A DNA stretch of 23,265 bases from a virus: IMG/VR virus record IMGVR_UViG_3300021139_000154, positions 1 through 23,265 of that record, one strand, 5' to 3'. This document shows, in pieces, positions 3,301 through 16,419 of this stretch; position 1 is the first letter of the stretch; each line of letters opens with the position of its first letter. The notes under the pieces were generated by a model. That model made no database searches. It was not told the DNA's origin and saw nothing but the letters and a program-made list of their open reading frames with translations. The position numbers were made by a program, and so were the translations under genes.

Positions 3301-4571
3301 ACTCTATGTCCTTGTATTGTTGGGCCTTTATAAACACCCTGATGTCCCCAACGCTGTGTGTTTACTGGATACATCGATAAATCTCTCTTCACTGGGAATA
3401 GATAATCAACCATATACCCCAATGCATCATTCATATGGTCATAGCCACTGTCTTTATCTGGCTGTACTGTGCCTTCCTTATAGGTATGGCGCTCTAATGA
3501 TTCTATCGTGTATTTACATGAGTTTGCGATAAACAGGTGTCTTTTACCATCAGAACCGCATAATCTGGAATTGACAGCATTAATACGATCTCTAACTTGT
3601 GTATGAGCATTAGGGGCTTTGACTATGAATCCATTGTTAGCCAAGATAGATAAATCTGTCGCACCTCCTGCTGATGTCTTACGCTGTCTTGCCGCAGGAT
3701 CAGGATAGATCCACATTTTACTCTTGGGGTAACGCTCTTTTAGTTCGTCAGCCATTTCTTGTGTGTTGCTGGAGAACATTCTAATCTCATCGATAATGAA
3801 TAAATCATCATTACGGCGCACGGCAATTACAGCACTCATAGGATCAATGTTAAAGTCCATACCTATATAAAGCACATCAACATTGATATTCTCAGGTGGT
3901 GTTATTGTGTTCAGCTTACGGTCAAAAGCATAATAGATTCGGCCACTATAAGTTTCAAATGTAGCCATGAATTCTTGACGAAACTGTCTCTCATCAAGGT
4001 CACGCATTGCCGCATCTATTTCTGCCTTACTTACTTGCCCACCTTCAATAGTGGTGTACTGAAAACTCTTCCAAGCATCTGGGAACTCTTGTTCCATTTG
4101 ATACAGTTCATAGGCCCAGTTTGTAATACCTTTAGGAGTACCAATGAACATAGCTTTACCTTCACGATCAGCTAGTGTAGGACGCAATACTTCAAAGAAT
4201 GCTTCGGGATCCACATCGGCGAATTCGTCCATGATCAAATAGTCAAGTCCAACTCCACGCAAGCTGTCTTCATTGTCTGCACCTTTTAGTGCTATGGTTG
4301 ATCCATTCTTTAATTGGATACTGAGTTCACTTTCATTTGCCTTGCGGATCCAGCGTAGGTCAGAGAGTTTTTGTTTTAGTTTGCGCCAAACAATCATCTT
4401 GGCCTGTTTGTAAGTAGGTGCAACATACCATACTTCTTGGTCCGGGACTCTAGCGTGGAAACAAAGTTCTCTTATAGCCAAATGGGTCTTACCAAAGCGT
4501 CGCCCGGCCACAACAACCTTAAACCTATGGTTATCATCCGCGATAGTTTGTTGTGGAACGCTTAATGCCAT
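3297..4571 (-). CDS. terminase large subunit (packaging ATPase and nuclease)
   Basis: A 424-residue terminase large subunit, the motor that cuts the DNA concatemer and pumps it through the portal. The Walker A motif is GRRFGKT (23-29), Walker B is YLIMDE (111-116) with the catalytic Glu, and the coupling motif is FIGTPKG (143-149). The C-terminal RNase H-like nuclease shows Asp239 in IGMDF, an acidic pair in IIDEI (259-263) and Asp378/Asp382 in DHMNDALGY. The length is normal for the family. It starts on the stop of the coiled-coil/membrane gene (TAATG) and ends on the portal start (ATGA). It does not look like T4 gp17; the strategy (cos or pac) cannot be judged from motifs alone. Confidence 0.96.
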   Translation of the reverse strand: MALSVPQQTIADDNHRFKVVVAGRRFGKTHLAIRELCFHARVPDQEVWYVAPTYKQAKMIVWRKLKQKLSDLRWIRKANESELSIQLKNGSTIALKGADNEDSLRGVGLDYLIMDEFADVDPEAFFEVLRPTLADREGKAMFIGTPKGITNWAYELYQMEQEFPDAWKSFQYTTIEGGQVSKAEIDAAMRDLDERQFRQEFMATFETYSGRIYYAFDRKLNTITPPENINVDVLYIGMDFNIDPMSAVIAVRRNDDLFIIDEIRMFSSNTQEMADELKERYPKSKMWIYPDPAARQRKTSAGGATDLSILANNGFIVKAPNAHTQVRDRINAVNSRLCGSDGKRHLFIANSCKYTIESLERHTYKEGTVQPDKDSGYDHMNDALGYMVDYLFPVKRDLSMYPVNTQRWGHQGVYKGPTIQGHRV

Positions 4572-6675: not shown

Positions 6676-6692
6676 ACAAATATTTAGTGGGT

Positions 6693-6700
6693 TATAAATA
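6693..6700 (+). promoter_or_regulatory. TATAAATA box 4 bases before the glycosyltransferase ATG
   Basis: An exact TATAAATA on the plus strand with TAAT between it and the ATG at 6705. If it were a T4-type late promoter, the transcript would start at or just inside the first codon, giving a leaderless message. No ribosome site is present before this ATG. The sequence match is certain; its function is doubtful. Confidence 0.25.
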
Positions 6701-6704
6701 TAAT

Positions 6705-7757
6705 ATGAAAAAAATTTGTGTATATGCCATTGCTCTTAATGAAGAGAAATATGTAGAGAAATTTGTAGCCAGTTGTAAGGGTGCTGACCTTATTGTTATT
6801 GCTGATACTGGTTCAACAGATCGTACAGTAGAACTAGCCCGTAGCTTAGGTGTTAGTGTTTATGAGATCAGTATTAAACCTTGGCGCTTTGATCATGCTC
6901 GCAATGCTAGTCTAGCTCTTATACCTGCAGACTATGATATCTGTGTTAGTATGGATTTGGATGAAGTTCTAGTAGAAGGTTGGAGAGATCAAATATTAGA
7001 TATTTGGACTCCTACTACTACTCGTATGCAGTATAGATTCAACAATGGAATGGGTAACATATTCAATGCTACCAAAGTACATGCTAGACATGGATATGCT
7101 TGGCATCATTTGTGTCATGAAATGATTGAAATAGATCCTCGCATGAAGGAAACTTGGGCAACTACAAATGAAATCTTAATTGAACACTATCCAGATCCCA
7201 CCAAATCTCGTGGACAATATTTGCCTATGTTAAGAGCTGGAGTTACAGAAAGACCACAGGATCATAGAGACAGTTGGTATCTAGCTAGAGAATTTTATTA
7301 TGTGAGTGATTGGAACCAAGCTATTAAAGAATGGGCAAGATACTTAAAATTACCTACAGCCACTTGGCATCATGAGCGTAGTTTTGCACTTCGTCATATG
7401 GGCAAATGTTATATGCAATTAAAAGATCATACCAATGCTCTTAAACACTTTAGGCTAGCTATAGATGAAAGCCGTTATATTCGTGATCCTTGGTGTGACC
7501 TAGCACAGGCCTGTTATGAACTAGGTCAATGGCAAGAATGTTTTTATGCCGCTACACAAGGTCTTACTATTATTAATCGCGAATATGTGTTTACAAGTAC
7601 ACCTGAACCATGGGGATGGAAATTGTATGATCTTGCCGCATTGGCCGCACACAATCTAGGTATCAAGGAAGAAGCTATCAAATATGGAGCAAAGGCCTTG
7701 GAGCATAATATGTCAGATCCTAGACTATTAAAGAACCTAGAATTTTATTTCAAGTAG
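6705..7757 (+). CDS. family 2-type glycosyltransferase with TPR-like C-terminus
   Basis: The start is placed at ATG 6705 (MKKICVYAIALNEEKY) rather than the GTG at 6687, giving 350 residues. Residues 1-100 form a GT-A fold typical of family 2 glycosyltransferases: ALNEE (10-14), IADTGSTDRT (32-41) for nucleotide-sugar binding and a DxD-type MDLDEV (83-88) for the metal ion. Residues about 220-350 contain helix pairs of the tetratricopeptide kind (HMGKCYMQLKDHTNALKHF, DLAQACYELGQW, NLGIKEEAIKYGAKAL). Such proteins transfer a sugar to protein or surface glycan. It is a lone plus-strand gene inside a minus-strand late block, like an accessory gene. Possible targets are host surface glycans or the phage's own Ser/Thr-rich fibres. 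Its stop overlaps the convergent 52-residue gene by 8 bases. Confidence 0.87.
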   Translation: MKKICVYAIALNEEKYVEKFVASCKGADLIVIADTGSTDRTVELARSLGVSVYEISIKPWRFDHARNASLALIPADYDICVSMDLDEVLVEGWRDQILDIWTPTTTRMQYRFNNGMGNIFNATKVHARHGYAWHHLCHEMIEIDPRMKETWATTNEILIEHYPDPTKSRGQYLPMLRAGVTERPQDHRDSWYLAREFYYVSDWNQAIKEWARYLKLPTATWHHERSFALRHMGKCYMQLKDHTNALKHFRLAIDESRYIRDPWCDLAQACYELGQWQECFYAATQGLTIINREYVFTSTPEPWGWKLYDLAALAAHNLGIKEEAIKYGAKALEHNMSDPRLLKNLEFYFK

Positions 7758-8357: not shown

Positions 8358-8399
8358 ATTGTTAGCCATGTTTGTTTGCCTGAATACTTCTCTGTAATA

Positions 8400-8407
8400 T
8401 ATTTATA
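8400..8407 (-). promoter_or_regulatory. T4-late-promoter-like TATAAATA box after a terminator
   Basis: An exact minus-strand TATAAATA beginning 10 bases beyond the terminator-like hairpin at 8417-8443. The order terminator then late promoter is common in T4-type late regions. The first gene downstream is the 52-residue frame at 7908, leaving a structured leader of almost 490 bases. Promoter function is inferred from the consensus only. Confidence 0.4.
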
Positions 8408-8443: not shown

Positions 8444-8489
8444 AGATAAAATTGAGGGGACATCTGCTCGTCTGCCAATGCGTTGATGC

Positions 8490-8543
8490 CTAGGGAGGAA
8501 AACGGACAAAATTCCCTAGTTCAGCCTACCCTCGCGGTCCGTT
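8490..8543. repeat. H-type pseudoknot-capable interleaved repeats
   Basis: Two perfect 7-bp pairings are interleaved: CTAGGGA (8490-8496) with TCCCTAG (8513-8519), and AACGGAC (8501-8507) with GTCCGTT (8537-8543). Loops are 4, 5 and 17 bases. The order a-b-a'-b' is that of an H-type pseudoknot and can form on either strand. It starts about 10 bases after the stop of the 111-residue gene in the direction of transcription. A flanking TCTGCC/GGCAGA pair (about 8471-8476 with 8556-8561) may close the whole unit. Confidence 0.55.
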
Positions 8544-8553
8544 AACCTGTTAA

Positions 8554-8889
8554 TTAGGCAGATCTATTTTTAACTCTGACTCTAAAATTTCTACGATCAA
8601 TTAGACCATTGGCAGTATTAACTGTACAAGTGACTGTATAGGTACGCTCATTTTGGCCACCACTTAAAGTAATATAAGTTTGAAGACCACCATTGGCAAT
8701 TCCACTATTAACATTAACAATTGGTTGTGGATCATTAGCACGAACTTGTAGTGTATAACTTGTGCTACCAATTGTATCACCATTAACTAACCATTGACTC
8801 CAATCGAATGTATAGGTAAGAACTGCGGCTGGATCTTTATCAATTGTTAATAATTCATTTATTATTTGAAATCCTGTTGTTGCTGTCAT
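8554..8889 (-). CDS. Ig-like phage virion protein, 111 aa
   Basis: A 111-residue beta-rich protein of a type common at the end of phage fibre or structural clusters: DPAAVLTYTFDWSQWLVNGD (about 18-37), DTIGSTSYTL, a GNN-like LSGGQNERTYTVTCTV strand pair and a final RRNFRVRVKNRSA. The pattern (acidic FDWS-WL-DGDTI start, SGG turn, VTC strand, basic R-x-x-x-V-x-V-R end) matches an immunoglobulin-like small phage protein. The likely role is a virion surface or fibre-associated domain. It is the last gene of the fibre operon, 18 bases after the 894-residue gene, with an AAAGGAT ribosome site. It is followed by a pseudoknot and terminator. Confidence 0.72.
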   Translation of the reverse strand: MTATTGFQIINELLTIDKDPAAVLTYTFDWSQWLVNGDTIGSTSYTLQVRANDPQPIVNVNSGIANGGLQTYITLSGGQNERTYTVTCTVNTANGLIDRRNFRVRVKNRSA

Positions 8890-11601: not shown

Positions 11602-12543
<942 letters not shown>

Positions 12544-12559
12544 TTTATATTGTCCTTAA

Positions 12560-13669
12560 TTATTTTGCATCACTTAATCTAGTTACTTTGAAAAATAAAG
12601 TTCCATATAATGGAGCATTAGGTTGAACTCCGTATAATCCAAGTTGATAAAGATTATTTTGATATCCTTCTTTTCCTTGAGGTATATTAATAAAAGCAGT
12701 CAAGGGTGAAATTAGATAATAATTACTATCATTATTTGGTGTATTACATGGAATTTCTAAATATGTTTCTTCTCCAACACTAGCACTTGTAGTATTGGAA
12801 TACATTTCATAGATATCAAACCACATATAACTACCTGATTTTTTAGCAGCCGCATGACCATAAATTTCAACAAGATAAAATCCAGAATTTGAAAAGAAAA
12901 ATTGACCTTCGCCATGGACAGTTTGTCCATTTATGGTTAGGTCACCATCAGAAAGAGTATTAATTAATTCATTAATATCAGACCAATAATTAGGTCCAGT
13001 ATCATTAATTATACTTAAAGTTTGATTAAATGGTATATAATCTATTTCATTACCGTTATGTATTCTTGTTTGTGCAGATCCTAAAGTCCAAAATGTATAA
13101 TTAGAAAAAGTATTCAATAATTGATAAACACCTACTTTTATTTCTCCACCACTTATTGTCCCCCAACTTGCAGAAGTTCCATTAGTGGTAAGATATTTTC
13201 CACTATTACCTGTTTGATTTGGTAATGTAATATCTGCTCCGGCTGGTCCAGTATCCCCTTGTGGTCCAGTTGTACCAGTTGCACCAGTTGTACCCTGTGC
13301 TCCTGTTGGTCCAGTATCACCTTGTGGTCCTTGTGCTCCAGTTGCGCCAGTTGGTCCTCTATAATCTTCGCCACTTGGATCACTTCCAGTAGCAGTACCG
13401 CCATCCTCGATGCCGGTTGTTGTGACAGCACTATTGCCGCCATCTAAATTTGTTGTTAAGTCTATAACCAATTGGTTATTAATGACTTCTGTTGAAATCT
13501 TTGATCCACCTGCAATGGTGAATGTATCATTAAGGCTACCATTAATAGTGCCTGTATCACCTGCTATGTTTATAGAGGCATTGTCTAAATTACTAAAATT
13601 ATTATCTAACTCTGTACGAGTTAGAGGCGCACCTTTAATGGCGCGAGTTACTATCACTGGCTTGGTCAT
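12560..13669 (-). CDS. collagen-like tail fibre, 369 aa
   Basis: The N-terminal domain (MTKPVIVTRAIKGAPLTRTE, then LDNNFSNLDNASI) is a paralogue of that of the next fibre (13739-15055). It ends in a beta-rich link up to about residue 100 and is followed by a short collagen-like stretch (105-144, [12 protein letters not shown]-type). After TTNGTSASWG (161-170), a C-terminal beta-sandwich (about 175-369) has features of C1q/TNF-like trimer heads (GEGQFFFSNSGFYLVEIYGH; ends GTLFFKVTRLSDAK). It probably forms a trimeric fibre anchored through the shared N-terminus, with the head binding host surface. An AAGGAC ribosome site precedes the ATG. The collagen block is much shorter than in its neighbour. 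Confidence 0.8.
   Translation of the reverse strand: MTKPVIVTRAIKGAPLTRTELDNNFSNLDNASINIAGDTGTINGSLNDTFTIAGGSKISTEVINNQLVIDLTTNLDGGNSAVTTTGIEDGGTATGSDPSGEDYRGPTGATGAQGPQGDTGPTGAQGTTGATGTTGPQGDTGPAGADITLPNQTGNSGKYLTTNGTSASWGTISGGEIKVGVYQLLNTFSNYTFWTLGSAQTRIHNGNEIDYIPFNQTLSIINDTGPNYWSDINELINTLSDGDLTINGQTVHGEGQFFFSNSGFYLVEIYGHAAAKKSGSYMWFDIYEMYSNTTSASVGEETYLEIPCNTPNNDSNYYLISPLTAFINIPQGKEGYQNNLYQLGLYGVQPNAPLYGTLFFKVTRLSDAK
13238..13357 (-). repeat. short collagen-like coding repeat
   Basis: Residues 105-144 of the 369-residue fibre are Gly-X-Y triplets ([12 protein letters not shown]). This gives a short, less regular 9-base repetition than in the two flanking fibre genes. Confidence 0.75.
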
Positions 13670-13738: not shown

Positions 13739-15065
<1,327 letters not shown>

Positions 15066-15121: not shown

Positions 15122-15541
15122 TTAAGCTAATGCGACTGACAAATTACCAGAAGTAATCTGGAATGTATCGCCGTTTAAGATTGATTTACTTGTTGTTACT
15201 GCTCCGAAGAACAATACATGTCCACCAGTTGCGGCATCCATAATTGCAATGTGAGTAATTGTACCCCAATCAGCTGTTGCTGTTGGGAATGTAATTGTTG
15301 CGTTTATTGCTGAACTTGTTGTACCACCACTTGTTGAAGCAGTAGCAAAAGTAGCTGATTGACGGCTATATCCACCAGCTGAAATCTCATCGGTTGTTGT
15401 ACCGATTTGTAAATTTGCCATGGCATTTCCACTTGTATTTGTGAATAATGCAACATAGCGTCCACTTGGTTGTGAATAATTTGTTGATGTTAGAACATGA
15501 TTAAGTAAAGATGATTCTAAGTAATTGCTTGCGGCGCTCAT
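15122..15541 (-). CDS. phage virion protein, 139 aa, fibre-associated family
   Basis: A 139-residue protein of a family common in phage tail and fibre clusters. It has N-terminal SNYLESSLLNHVLTSTNYSQ (5-24), then RYVALFTNT (28-36), AGGYSRQSATFATAS (about 55-69), SSAINATITFPTATADWGTI (about 76-95), THIAIMDAATGGHVLFFGAV and a final SKSILNGDTFQITSGNLSV. Members are beta-rich and thought to be structural (fibre or decoration), but no precise function is established to my knowledge. A good AAGGAG ribosome site precedes the ATG and an exact TATAAATA is about 45 bases upstream, making this the first gene of the fibre operon. Confidence 0.8.
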   Translation of the reverse strand: MSAASNYLESSLLNHVLTSTNYSQPSGRYVALFTNTSGNAMANLQIGTTTDEISAGGYSRQSATFATASTSGGTTSSAINATITFPTATADWGTITHIAIMDAATGGHVLFFGAVTTSKSILNGDTFQITSGNLSVALA

Positions 15542-15585
15542 ATGTTTCTCCTTAAGGGTTATATGGATTTCGCGAATCTCAGTAT

Positions 15586-15593
15586 TATTTATA
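15586..15593 (-). promoter_or_regulatory. T4-late-promoter-like TATAAATA box before fibre operon
   Basis: An exact minus-strand TATAAATA in the 130-base divergent gap between the 139-residue gene and the plus-strand zinc-ribbon gene. A start 6-7 bases downstream would give a leader of nearly 40 bases with the AAGGAG site close to the ATG at 15541. Promoter use is inferred from position and consensus. Confidence 0.45.
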
Positions 15594-15621
15594 GCAAACT
15601 TAAAAAATCATTAGAAAACCC

Positions 15622-15671: not shown

Positions 15672-16103
15672 ATGGATAAAAATAAATTGAGAGAACTAAT
15701 TAAACAAGTTGCCATTATCAAGGATGTTGGGACAGATGTCGGGCCGAGCGGAATACCATTAACAGGTGTTCGAAAGGCAAGACCTAAAAAAATAATCGAA
15801 ACTGTTATAAATGAATTTGGTGAAGAAGAACAAATTGAAGTTGAAATGGTTACTTCTAATCCAACATTAGGTTACATTATTGATGAATTAAAAGACAATT
15901 ATCGATTATGTGAATTAGGTTGTGGTGAAATGGTTAATAATCAACAGATTTATAAAAGATTGGTACATACACCTGAAAATCATTGGCGTACTCAATGTGT
16001 TAATTGTAAAAAAGTTATAGGGCCAGATGGTGAATTAATTTATGGTACTTTGAATGTACAAAGAGCCTTTTCTGCACACTTTTCTGCAAAACAAAATAAA
16101 TAA
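15672..16103 (+). CDS. putative zinc-ribbon protein, 143 aa
   Basis: The start is set at ATG 15672; a TTG at 15654 in the same frame is possible but has no support. The N-terminal half is charged and probably helical or disordered (MDKNKLRELIKQVAIIKDVG). The C-terminal half has a compact four-cysteine pattern: CELGC (80-84), His99 in KRLVHTPENHW and CVNCKKV (109-115), fitting a zinc ribbon. Function unknown; nucleic-acid or protein binding is plausible. It is the only plus-strand gene among the tail genes and ends 2 bases before the cloverleaf element (16106-16233). The opposite strand and own late-like box suggest an independently transcribed accessory or regulatory gene. Confidence 0.7.
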   Translation: MDKNKLRELIKQVAIIKDVGTDVGPSGIPLTGVRKARPKKIIETVINEFGEEEQIEVEMVTSNPTLGYIIDELKDNYRLCELGCGEMVNNQQIYKRLVHTPENHWRTQCVNCKKVIGPDGELIYGTLNVQRAFSAHFSAKQNK

Positions 16104-16105
16104 GT

Positions 16106-16233
16106 GTGTTAGGGAGATAATGTAATACAAGGCTTTGCATTACATGTTCTGACACCATTAGACCTAATCCTAATGGAATTTCTCCGGGCTACAGCCATTG
16201 CCCGAATTCTCTGTTCTGGTATCTCCCTAACAC
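16106..16233. ncRNA. candidate cloverleaf structured RNA or cruciform element
   Basis: GTGTTAGGGAGATA (16106-16119) pairs perfectly over 14 bp with TATCTCCCTAACAC (16220-16233). Inside are three perfect hairpins in a row: ATGTAAT/ATTACAT (16120-16126 with 16139-16145), CCATTAG/CTAATGG (16155-16161 with 16170-16176) and CGGGC/GCCCG (16185-16189 with 16200-16204). This is a complete four-helix cloverleaf of 128 bases. It fills the gap between two convergent genes, starting 2 bases after one stop and ending 3 bases before the other. It could act at the 3' end of either transcript; T-rich bases follow on both sides (CACCTTTT on plus). It is not a tRNA and I recognise no known RNA family. Confidence 0.6.
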
Positions 16234-16236
16234 CTT

Positions 16237-16419
16237 TTACCACTTCTTTTCTGGACAATGAAATATTGGAATGAATGTTTTAATTGTCATTAAACAGCCA
16301 CATACCCCGCACTTATCCGTTTGAGGATTAAATCTTTCGCATTTGGTACAAATCTCAAAGCGTTCTCTTGCCTGTGGATTTTGTACAAATCTAGTTATGA
16401 GATCAGCTAGTTGGTTCAT
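16237..16419 (-). CDS. small Cys-rich putative zinc protein, 60 aa
   Basis: The start is set at ATG 16419, overlapping the stop of the 751-residue gene (ATGA). An upstream in-frame TTG at 16440 is rejected because it lies inside that gene without a ribosome site. The 60-residue product has six cysteines: CTKC (24-27), CGVCGC (37-42) and CP-x-x-K-W at the C-terminus (Cys55 to Trp60). This C-x2-C ... C-x2-C-x-C ... C-P-x-x-KW pattern is one I recognise in many small phage proteins in tail-tip and fibre regions. It probably binds zinc or an iron-sulphur cluster; function is unknown. Its stop is 3 bases from the cloverleaf element. Confidence 0.78.
   Translation of the reverse strand: MNQLADLITRFVQNPQARERFEICTKCERFNPQTDKCGVCGCLMTIKTFIPIFHCPEKKW

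Follow-up and report, generated by a model that had tools for sequence, protein, structure and literature searches.

What kind of element is the tightly folded block of 128 bases between two convergent genes in this viral DNA: an RNA in its own right, a message end shared by two genes, or a DNA site? The window (the whole stretch analysed, 23,265 nucleotides) carries this block on its plus strand, where a perfect closing helix of 14 bp (P1) surrounds three hairpins (P2, P3, and P4; Table 1). The cloverleaf described in an earlier note on this DNA is there as drawn, with arms of 7, 7, and 5 bp, and on the plus strand P2 gains a further 3 bp beyond an A.C mismatch. The predicted folding energy is -44.7 kcal/mol for the plus strand (z -5.9) and -50.5 kcal/mol for the minus strand (z -6.1). 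None of 200 dinucleotide shuffles matched the folding energy, the shuffles lying about six standard deviations above on each strand, in agreement with the note's view that the pairing exceeds chance. The edges of the fold do lie close to both stop codons: it starts 3 bases past the TAA of the plus-strand gene (stop at 16101–16103) and ends 4 bases short of the stop codon of the minus-strand gene at 16237.

We conclude that this element, here called RNA1, is very probably a structured, independently transcribed late phage RNA. On the evidence of sequence comparison, it is a previously uncatalogued RNA gene in a group of uncultivated phages. Few large conserved noncoding RNAs are known from phages, and most have an obscure function. 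RNA1 would add a new family with strong covariation, a defined promoter, a terminator, a protein-gene neighbour, and a concrete candidate partner sequence.

Table 1. Features of RNA1, its neighbour gene, and the candidate partner RNA2 in the window.
Feature	Position	Strand	Basis or remark
Gene A, encoding a 143-aa zinc-ribbon protein (CxxxCG ... HWRTxCxxC); always the 5' neighbour of RNA1	15672..16103	+	
Predicted late promoter of RNA1: TTTT (16080-16083) and AATAAATA box (16095-16102)	16080..16102	+	Within the end of gene A
RNA1, predicted structured noncoding RNA, whole fold	16106..16233	+	Folds, covariation, covariance model
P1, 5' strand of closing helix	16106..16119	+	
P2 hairpin (arm I)	16120..16145	+	Folds; sequence highly variable, left out of pair counts
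P3 hairpin (arm II)	16155..16176	+	Fold, double changes
J3 joiner, pyrimidine-rich (UUUCUCC region)	16177..16184	+	
P4 hairpin	16185..16204	+	Conserved 10-base loop UACAGCCAUU at 16190-16199; stem covaries
J4 joiner with UUCUCUGU, candidate pairing segment	16205..16219	+	Complementary to RNA2 leader
P1, 3' strand of closing helix	16220..16233	+	
Short U tract after P1	16235..16238	+	Window compared with L030/L004; in relatives a separate terminator comes next
RNA2, putative late noncoding RNA lacking a long open frame (ends approximate)	~8395-8070	-	Conservation
RNA2 late promoter TATAAATA (8400-8407) and leader with ACAGAGAA (8388-8395) and AUGGCU (8364-8369)	8364..8407	-	Candidate target

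A family of covarying folds beside gene A

We reached homologues of RNA1 through the flanking proteins and then through DNA patterns. They occur in some 30 IMG/VR contigs, all from uncultivated phages, as about 24 distinct versions of 95–138 bases. A covariance model built from 16 members (R1) finds a single strong match per record in 19 of 20 records, and the copy number is one per record. Members outside the training set were also recovered (E-values of 4e-9 for L059, 4e-7 for L023, 9e-7 for L057, and 7e-6 for L058).

The earlier note had named compensatory substitutions in homologous junctions as the result that would support the fold, and these are clearly present in P1, P3, and P4. Because plain MAFFT, applied to whole elements, puts the arms out of register, pairs were counted on ungapped blocks anchored at the promoter box and at conserved loops, which avoids an alignment fitted to the structure. 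In P1 and P4 together, 93.9% of cells pair in standard fashion, and 13 of the 18 pairs have changes on both sides. Double-changed cells number 62, against 17 in shuffles and 8–16 in controls with slid partners. Both-side changes are found in 6 of the 7 pairs of P3, while P2 folds in each member and is too variable to align or count. These counts argue that the RNA1 fold is under selection.

The stem of P4 changes freely (GGGC/GCCC, GGGU/ACCC, AAGGC/GCCUU, UACUG/CAGUA, AAUCC/GGAUU, GUC/GAC, and others) around a near-invariant loop. The loop was fixed in the search pattern for some members, but it is also present in those found through P1 alone or through gene A; small changes occur in L023, L052, L054, L058, and L071. 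Many relatives have UGGCAU as the P3 loop, and that of the window differs. A kissing contact between the P3 loop (UGGC) and the P4 loop (GCCA) is possible in many members and absent in the window, L019, L052, and L071, and we do not claim it. A match of the P4 loop to 16S rRNA (AUGGCUGU) was dropped, since 8 matching bases are not rare by chance.

Gene A, which encodes a zinc-ribbon protein of 101–167 aa across members, adjoins every RNA1 found, with RNA1 always on its 3' side. A profile located 31 gene A loci, and RNA1 is present, by the model or by identical sequence, at 28 of the 30 that have downstream sequence. In L071 and L073 the box and hairpins are present and fall below detection by the model. 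The gene on the other side of RNA1 varies between members, so that gene A and RNA1 occur together in varied neighbourhoods. The protein matches no Pfam family and has no credible PDB relative, and a structure model of it (pLDDT 77) matched no fold significantly. From its linkage, it is a possible partner of RNA1.

Known RNAs did not account for the element. Rfam 15 gave no family at the gathering score for the window and ten further loci, and a permissive search up to E 10 returned only chance matches to miRNA, snoRNA, and lncRNA families. ARAGORN found no tRNA or tmRNA gene, and here too the note had been right in excluding a tRNA. A DNA pattern searched for in 84,980 genomes of bacteria and archaea hit four places, all lacking the fold and taken as chance matches. 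In a collection of isolated phages we saw no credible relative of the junction or of gene A; RNA1 is absent from phage DSL-LC06 and from two pelagiphages. We found no earlier report of RNA1 in the literature.

Promoter, terminator, and strand

An ATAAATA-type box lies 3 bases ahead of the fold in all 24 members (CTAAATA in L023; the distance prints as 2 where the extracted sequence began one base early). Such a box is the late promoter of T4 and cyanophages (PMC2984593; PMC2988020), and the same box with an upstream T run precedes the structural genes of these phages. In T4-type late promoters the NATAAATA box lies about one helical turn before the start (PMC2988020; PMC2984593); thus, RNA1 would start in the first bases of P1. 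The box appears to be independent of gene A coding, because it stays where gene A ends elsewhere: the gene A stop is shifted by 4 bases (earlier and in another frame) in L032–L036, L052, and L057 with the box kept, and in L058 gene A ends more than 40 bases earlier with box and spacing unchanged. A search of 11 partial records for a sigma-70 region 2 domain gave none over the cut-off (the phage late sigma factor gp55 is divergent).

On the plus strand, an intrinsic terminator follows within 130 bases of RNA1 in 23 of the 24 members, compared with none of the 24 on the minus strand (1.2% at random places). The window itself has no separate terminator after RNA1, and P1 runs directly into CUUUUACCA (CUUUU in RNA). 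In its nearest differing relative (L004/L030), the fold is separated from the opposite gene by 80 bases that include a terminator; the window has no such stretch, which is why the fold appears to fill the junction exactly. The exact filling of a convergent junction that the note described holds only for the closest relatives of the window; elsewhere, a terminator and other genes follow. From these comparisons, RNA1 appears to have its own promoter and its own terminator on one strand, the window itself lacking the latter.

The plus strand also folds better than the minus strand in 17 of 22 members (p 0.006), and the covariance model scores the window at 87.7 bits on the plus strand versus 27.2 on the minus strand. 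The window is a counter-example in that its own minus strand folds slightly better. We nevertheless rejected a minus-strand RNA, since promoter, terminator, model scores, and most relatives indicate the plus strand. With its covariation, conserved loop, own promoter, and own terminator, the element fits the new phage noncoding RNA that the note had listed among its possibilities.

A candidate pairing with RNA2

A second late noncoding RNA, RNA2, is predicted on the minus strand of the window, with a length of about 310 bases. It is near-identical in L014 and L021 though their neighbouring genes diverge, and it can be aligned with L046 and with phage DSL-LC06 (OR003941), where the relative lies within an annotated gap at 572–1328. 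Other phages have different long noncoding RNAs at this place. In L033, RNA2 contains Polynucleobacter-1 RNA (RF01718, 73.1 bits; 4197–4329, plus strand) as a domain. This orphan motif is thus also present in phages, and the L033 RNA2 offers it a possible context. Just before the RNA2 promoter of the window, positions 8448–8557 (minus strand) resemble the Rhizobiales sRNA Atu_At1 (RF02496) with 48.5 bits and E 1e-6, the gathering score being 60.

The J4 joiner of RNA1 is complementary to the RNA2 leader at 8395–8388 (minus strand), the first bases after the late promoter. With its own leader, J4 gives -9.1 kcal/mol, compared with -3.9 +/- 0.6 for shuffled J4; none of 400 shuffles did as well. 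J4 prefers its own leader over those of other phages (exact p 0.014 over 7 groups), in a sample of 12 phages whose groups are related and whose members are not independent, and for a pairing that was spotted by eye ahead of its testing. J3 likewise prefers its own leader (p 0.0016). The P4 loop shows no such preference in the same 7-group test (p 0.74), so the RNA2 leader does not explain the conservation of this loop. Among the late leaders of the same record, that of RNA2 is the best J4 partner in 8 of 12 records; in L014 and L037 the sole better partner is RNA1's own P1 strand, and for L030 and L021 another partner ranks above the RNA2 leader. Being rich in pyrimidines, J4 would be expected to pair with many leaders that are rich in purines. 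In the divergent L058, J4 (UUCCUAUC) and leader (GAUAGGGA) each have a sequence seen in no other member, yet they still match each other over 8 bases, one of the pairs being G.U. That RNA1 works by pairing with RNA2 is, on these sequence matches, a nearly balanced question, tipping if anything slightly toward no.

In the mechanism that we propose, the AATAAATA box overlapping the gene A stop codon would direct transcription of RNA1, with a probable start no more than a few bases from G16106, and the transcript would fold into a closed multibranch structure of P1 and three hairpins. Since its ends would be locked in P1, RNA1 should be stable. J4, kept open between P4 and P1, would pair with the first bases of RNA2 (UUCUCUGU with ACAGAGAA), perhaps with a contribution from J3 and from P4-loop pairing of GCCAU with AUGGC. 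Such pairing would join the two RNAs or mask the 5' end of RNA2. The gene A protein, by its linkage, would be the obvious candidate for a partner of RNA1.

Alternative explanations and known systems

RNA1 could instead be chiefly the RNA of a protein–RNA particle, in which the gene A zinc-ribbon protein, or some other protein of phage or host, binds the P4 loop UACAGCCAUU and the RNA2 pairing is incidental. A near-invariant loop on a freely changing stem is what would be expected of a protein-binding hairpin, and gene A and RNA1 remain strictly linked across varied gene neighbourhoods, although linkage alone is no proof of contact. Between the C-terminal part of gene A and double-stranded RNA-binding domains there is a very weak structural similarity, which does not rise above noise (Z 2.3, Foldseek E above 1), and gene A belongs to no recognised RNA-binding family. 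We regard this explanation as somewhat unlikely. A reading as an elaborate terminator of gene A, or as an element that stabilises its 3' end (in the window, likewise for the opposite gene), would suit the position of the fold directly after gene A and the passage of the window's P1 into a U tract with no other terminator. It is nonetheless improbable, given a promoter box at fixed spacing right ahead of the fold, an ordinary terminator besides the fold in all members but one of 24, a conserved 10-base loop that a terminator does not need, and a distance of more than 40 bases between the fold and the gene A stop in L058. The note's suggestion of a shared 3' element protecting both messages also conflicts with gene A being the sole constant neighbour and with a promoter box that lies between most of gene A and RNA1.

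The near-perfect 14-bp terminal inverted repeats, and the occurrence of gene A plus element as a unit in different gene neighbourhoods, might point to a DNA element, either a MITE-like palindromic mobile element or a cruciform site for recognition or replication. Each record has a single copy, however, the flanks show no target-site duplications, the end sequences change together by compensation, and promoter and terminator are strand-specific, all of which make a DNA element highly improbable. The cruciform proposed in the note is disfavoured by the same strand assignment, which promoter and terminator fix. As an explanation of the whole, we favour an independent late noncoding RNA that acts in trans by pairing with RNA2, and we judge the case for it to be evenly poised. 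A broader proposal, a conserved late system in which RNA1 and the longer RNA2 recognise each other by pairing and work with the gene A zinc-ribbon protein, seems unlikely; if true, such a system might serve, for example, virion assembly or the control of late gene expression.

Several known phage RNAs invite comparison. Like RNA1, the phi29-type pRNA is a structured RNA encoded by a phage, has a length of about 120 bases, and folds with a long closing helix around several hairpins. The pRNA family (RF00044) is nevertheless absent from the Rfam matches up to E 10, and a packaging role has no support. The stable small RNAs of T4, species 1 and 2, have a cloverleaf- or tRNA-like fold and an obscure function, and lie within a tRNA cluster from which they are processed. 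RNA1 is similar in size and in its cloverleaf-like fold; in contrast, no tRNA was found here, and RNA1 has its own late promoter and neighbours gene A. Polynucleobacter-1 RNA, listed for Burkholderiales and for fresh water and estuary (PMC2864571), occurs in the same kind of phage, as the L033 domain, but is distinct from RNA1 and concerns its candidate partner RNA2. CfrI of cyanophage S-PM2 is an antisense noncoding RNA thought to regulate phage genes (PMC2984593). Like RNA1 it is a noncoding RNA of a phage, yet it measures about 225 bases and is antisense in cis, whereas RNA1 is highly structured and lies at a different locus from its candidate partner.

The box ahead of RNA1 and of the structural genes resembles the late promoters of T4 and cyanophages (TATAAATA, NATAAATA), but the annotated phages closest by terminase are DSL-LC06 and pelagiphages rather than T4. 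Three successive structural proteins of the window (11602–12543, 12560–13669, and 13739–15055, minus strand) contain long runs of collagen-like G-x-y repeats (GATGAT...). The leader (15541–15600, minus strand) of the gene starting at 15541, which encodes a Gp80-like fibre protein, carries a dyad, GATTCGCGAAATC, and a dyad after the late promoter of this fibre gene is conserved in several relatives. In a glycosyltransferase moron gene (6687–7757, plus strand), TATAAATA lies only a few bases ahead of the likely ATG (6705), pointing to a message almost without a leader or to a start further upstream.
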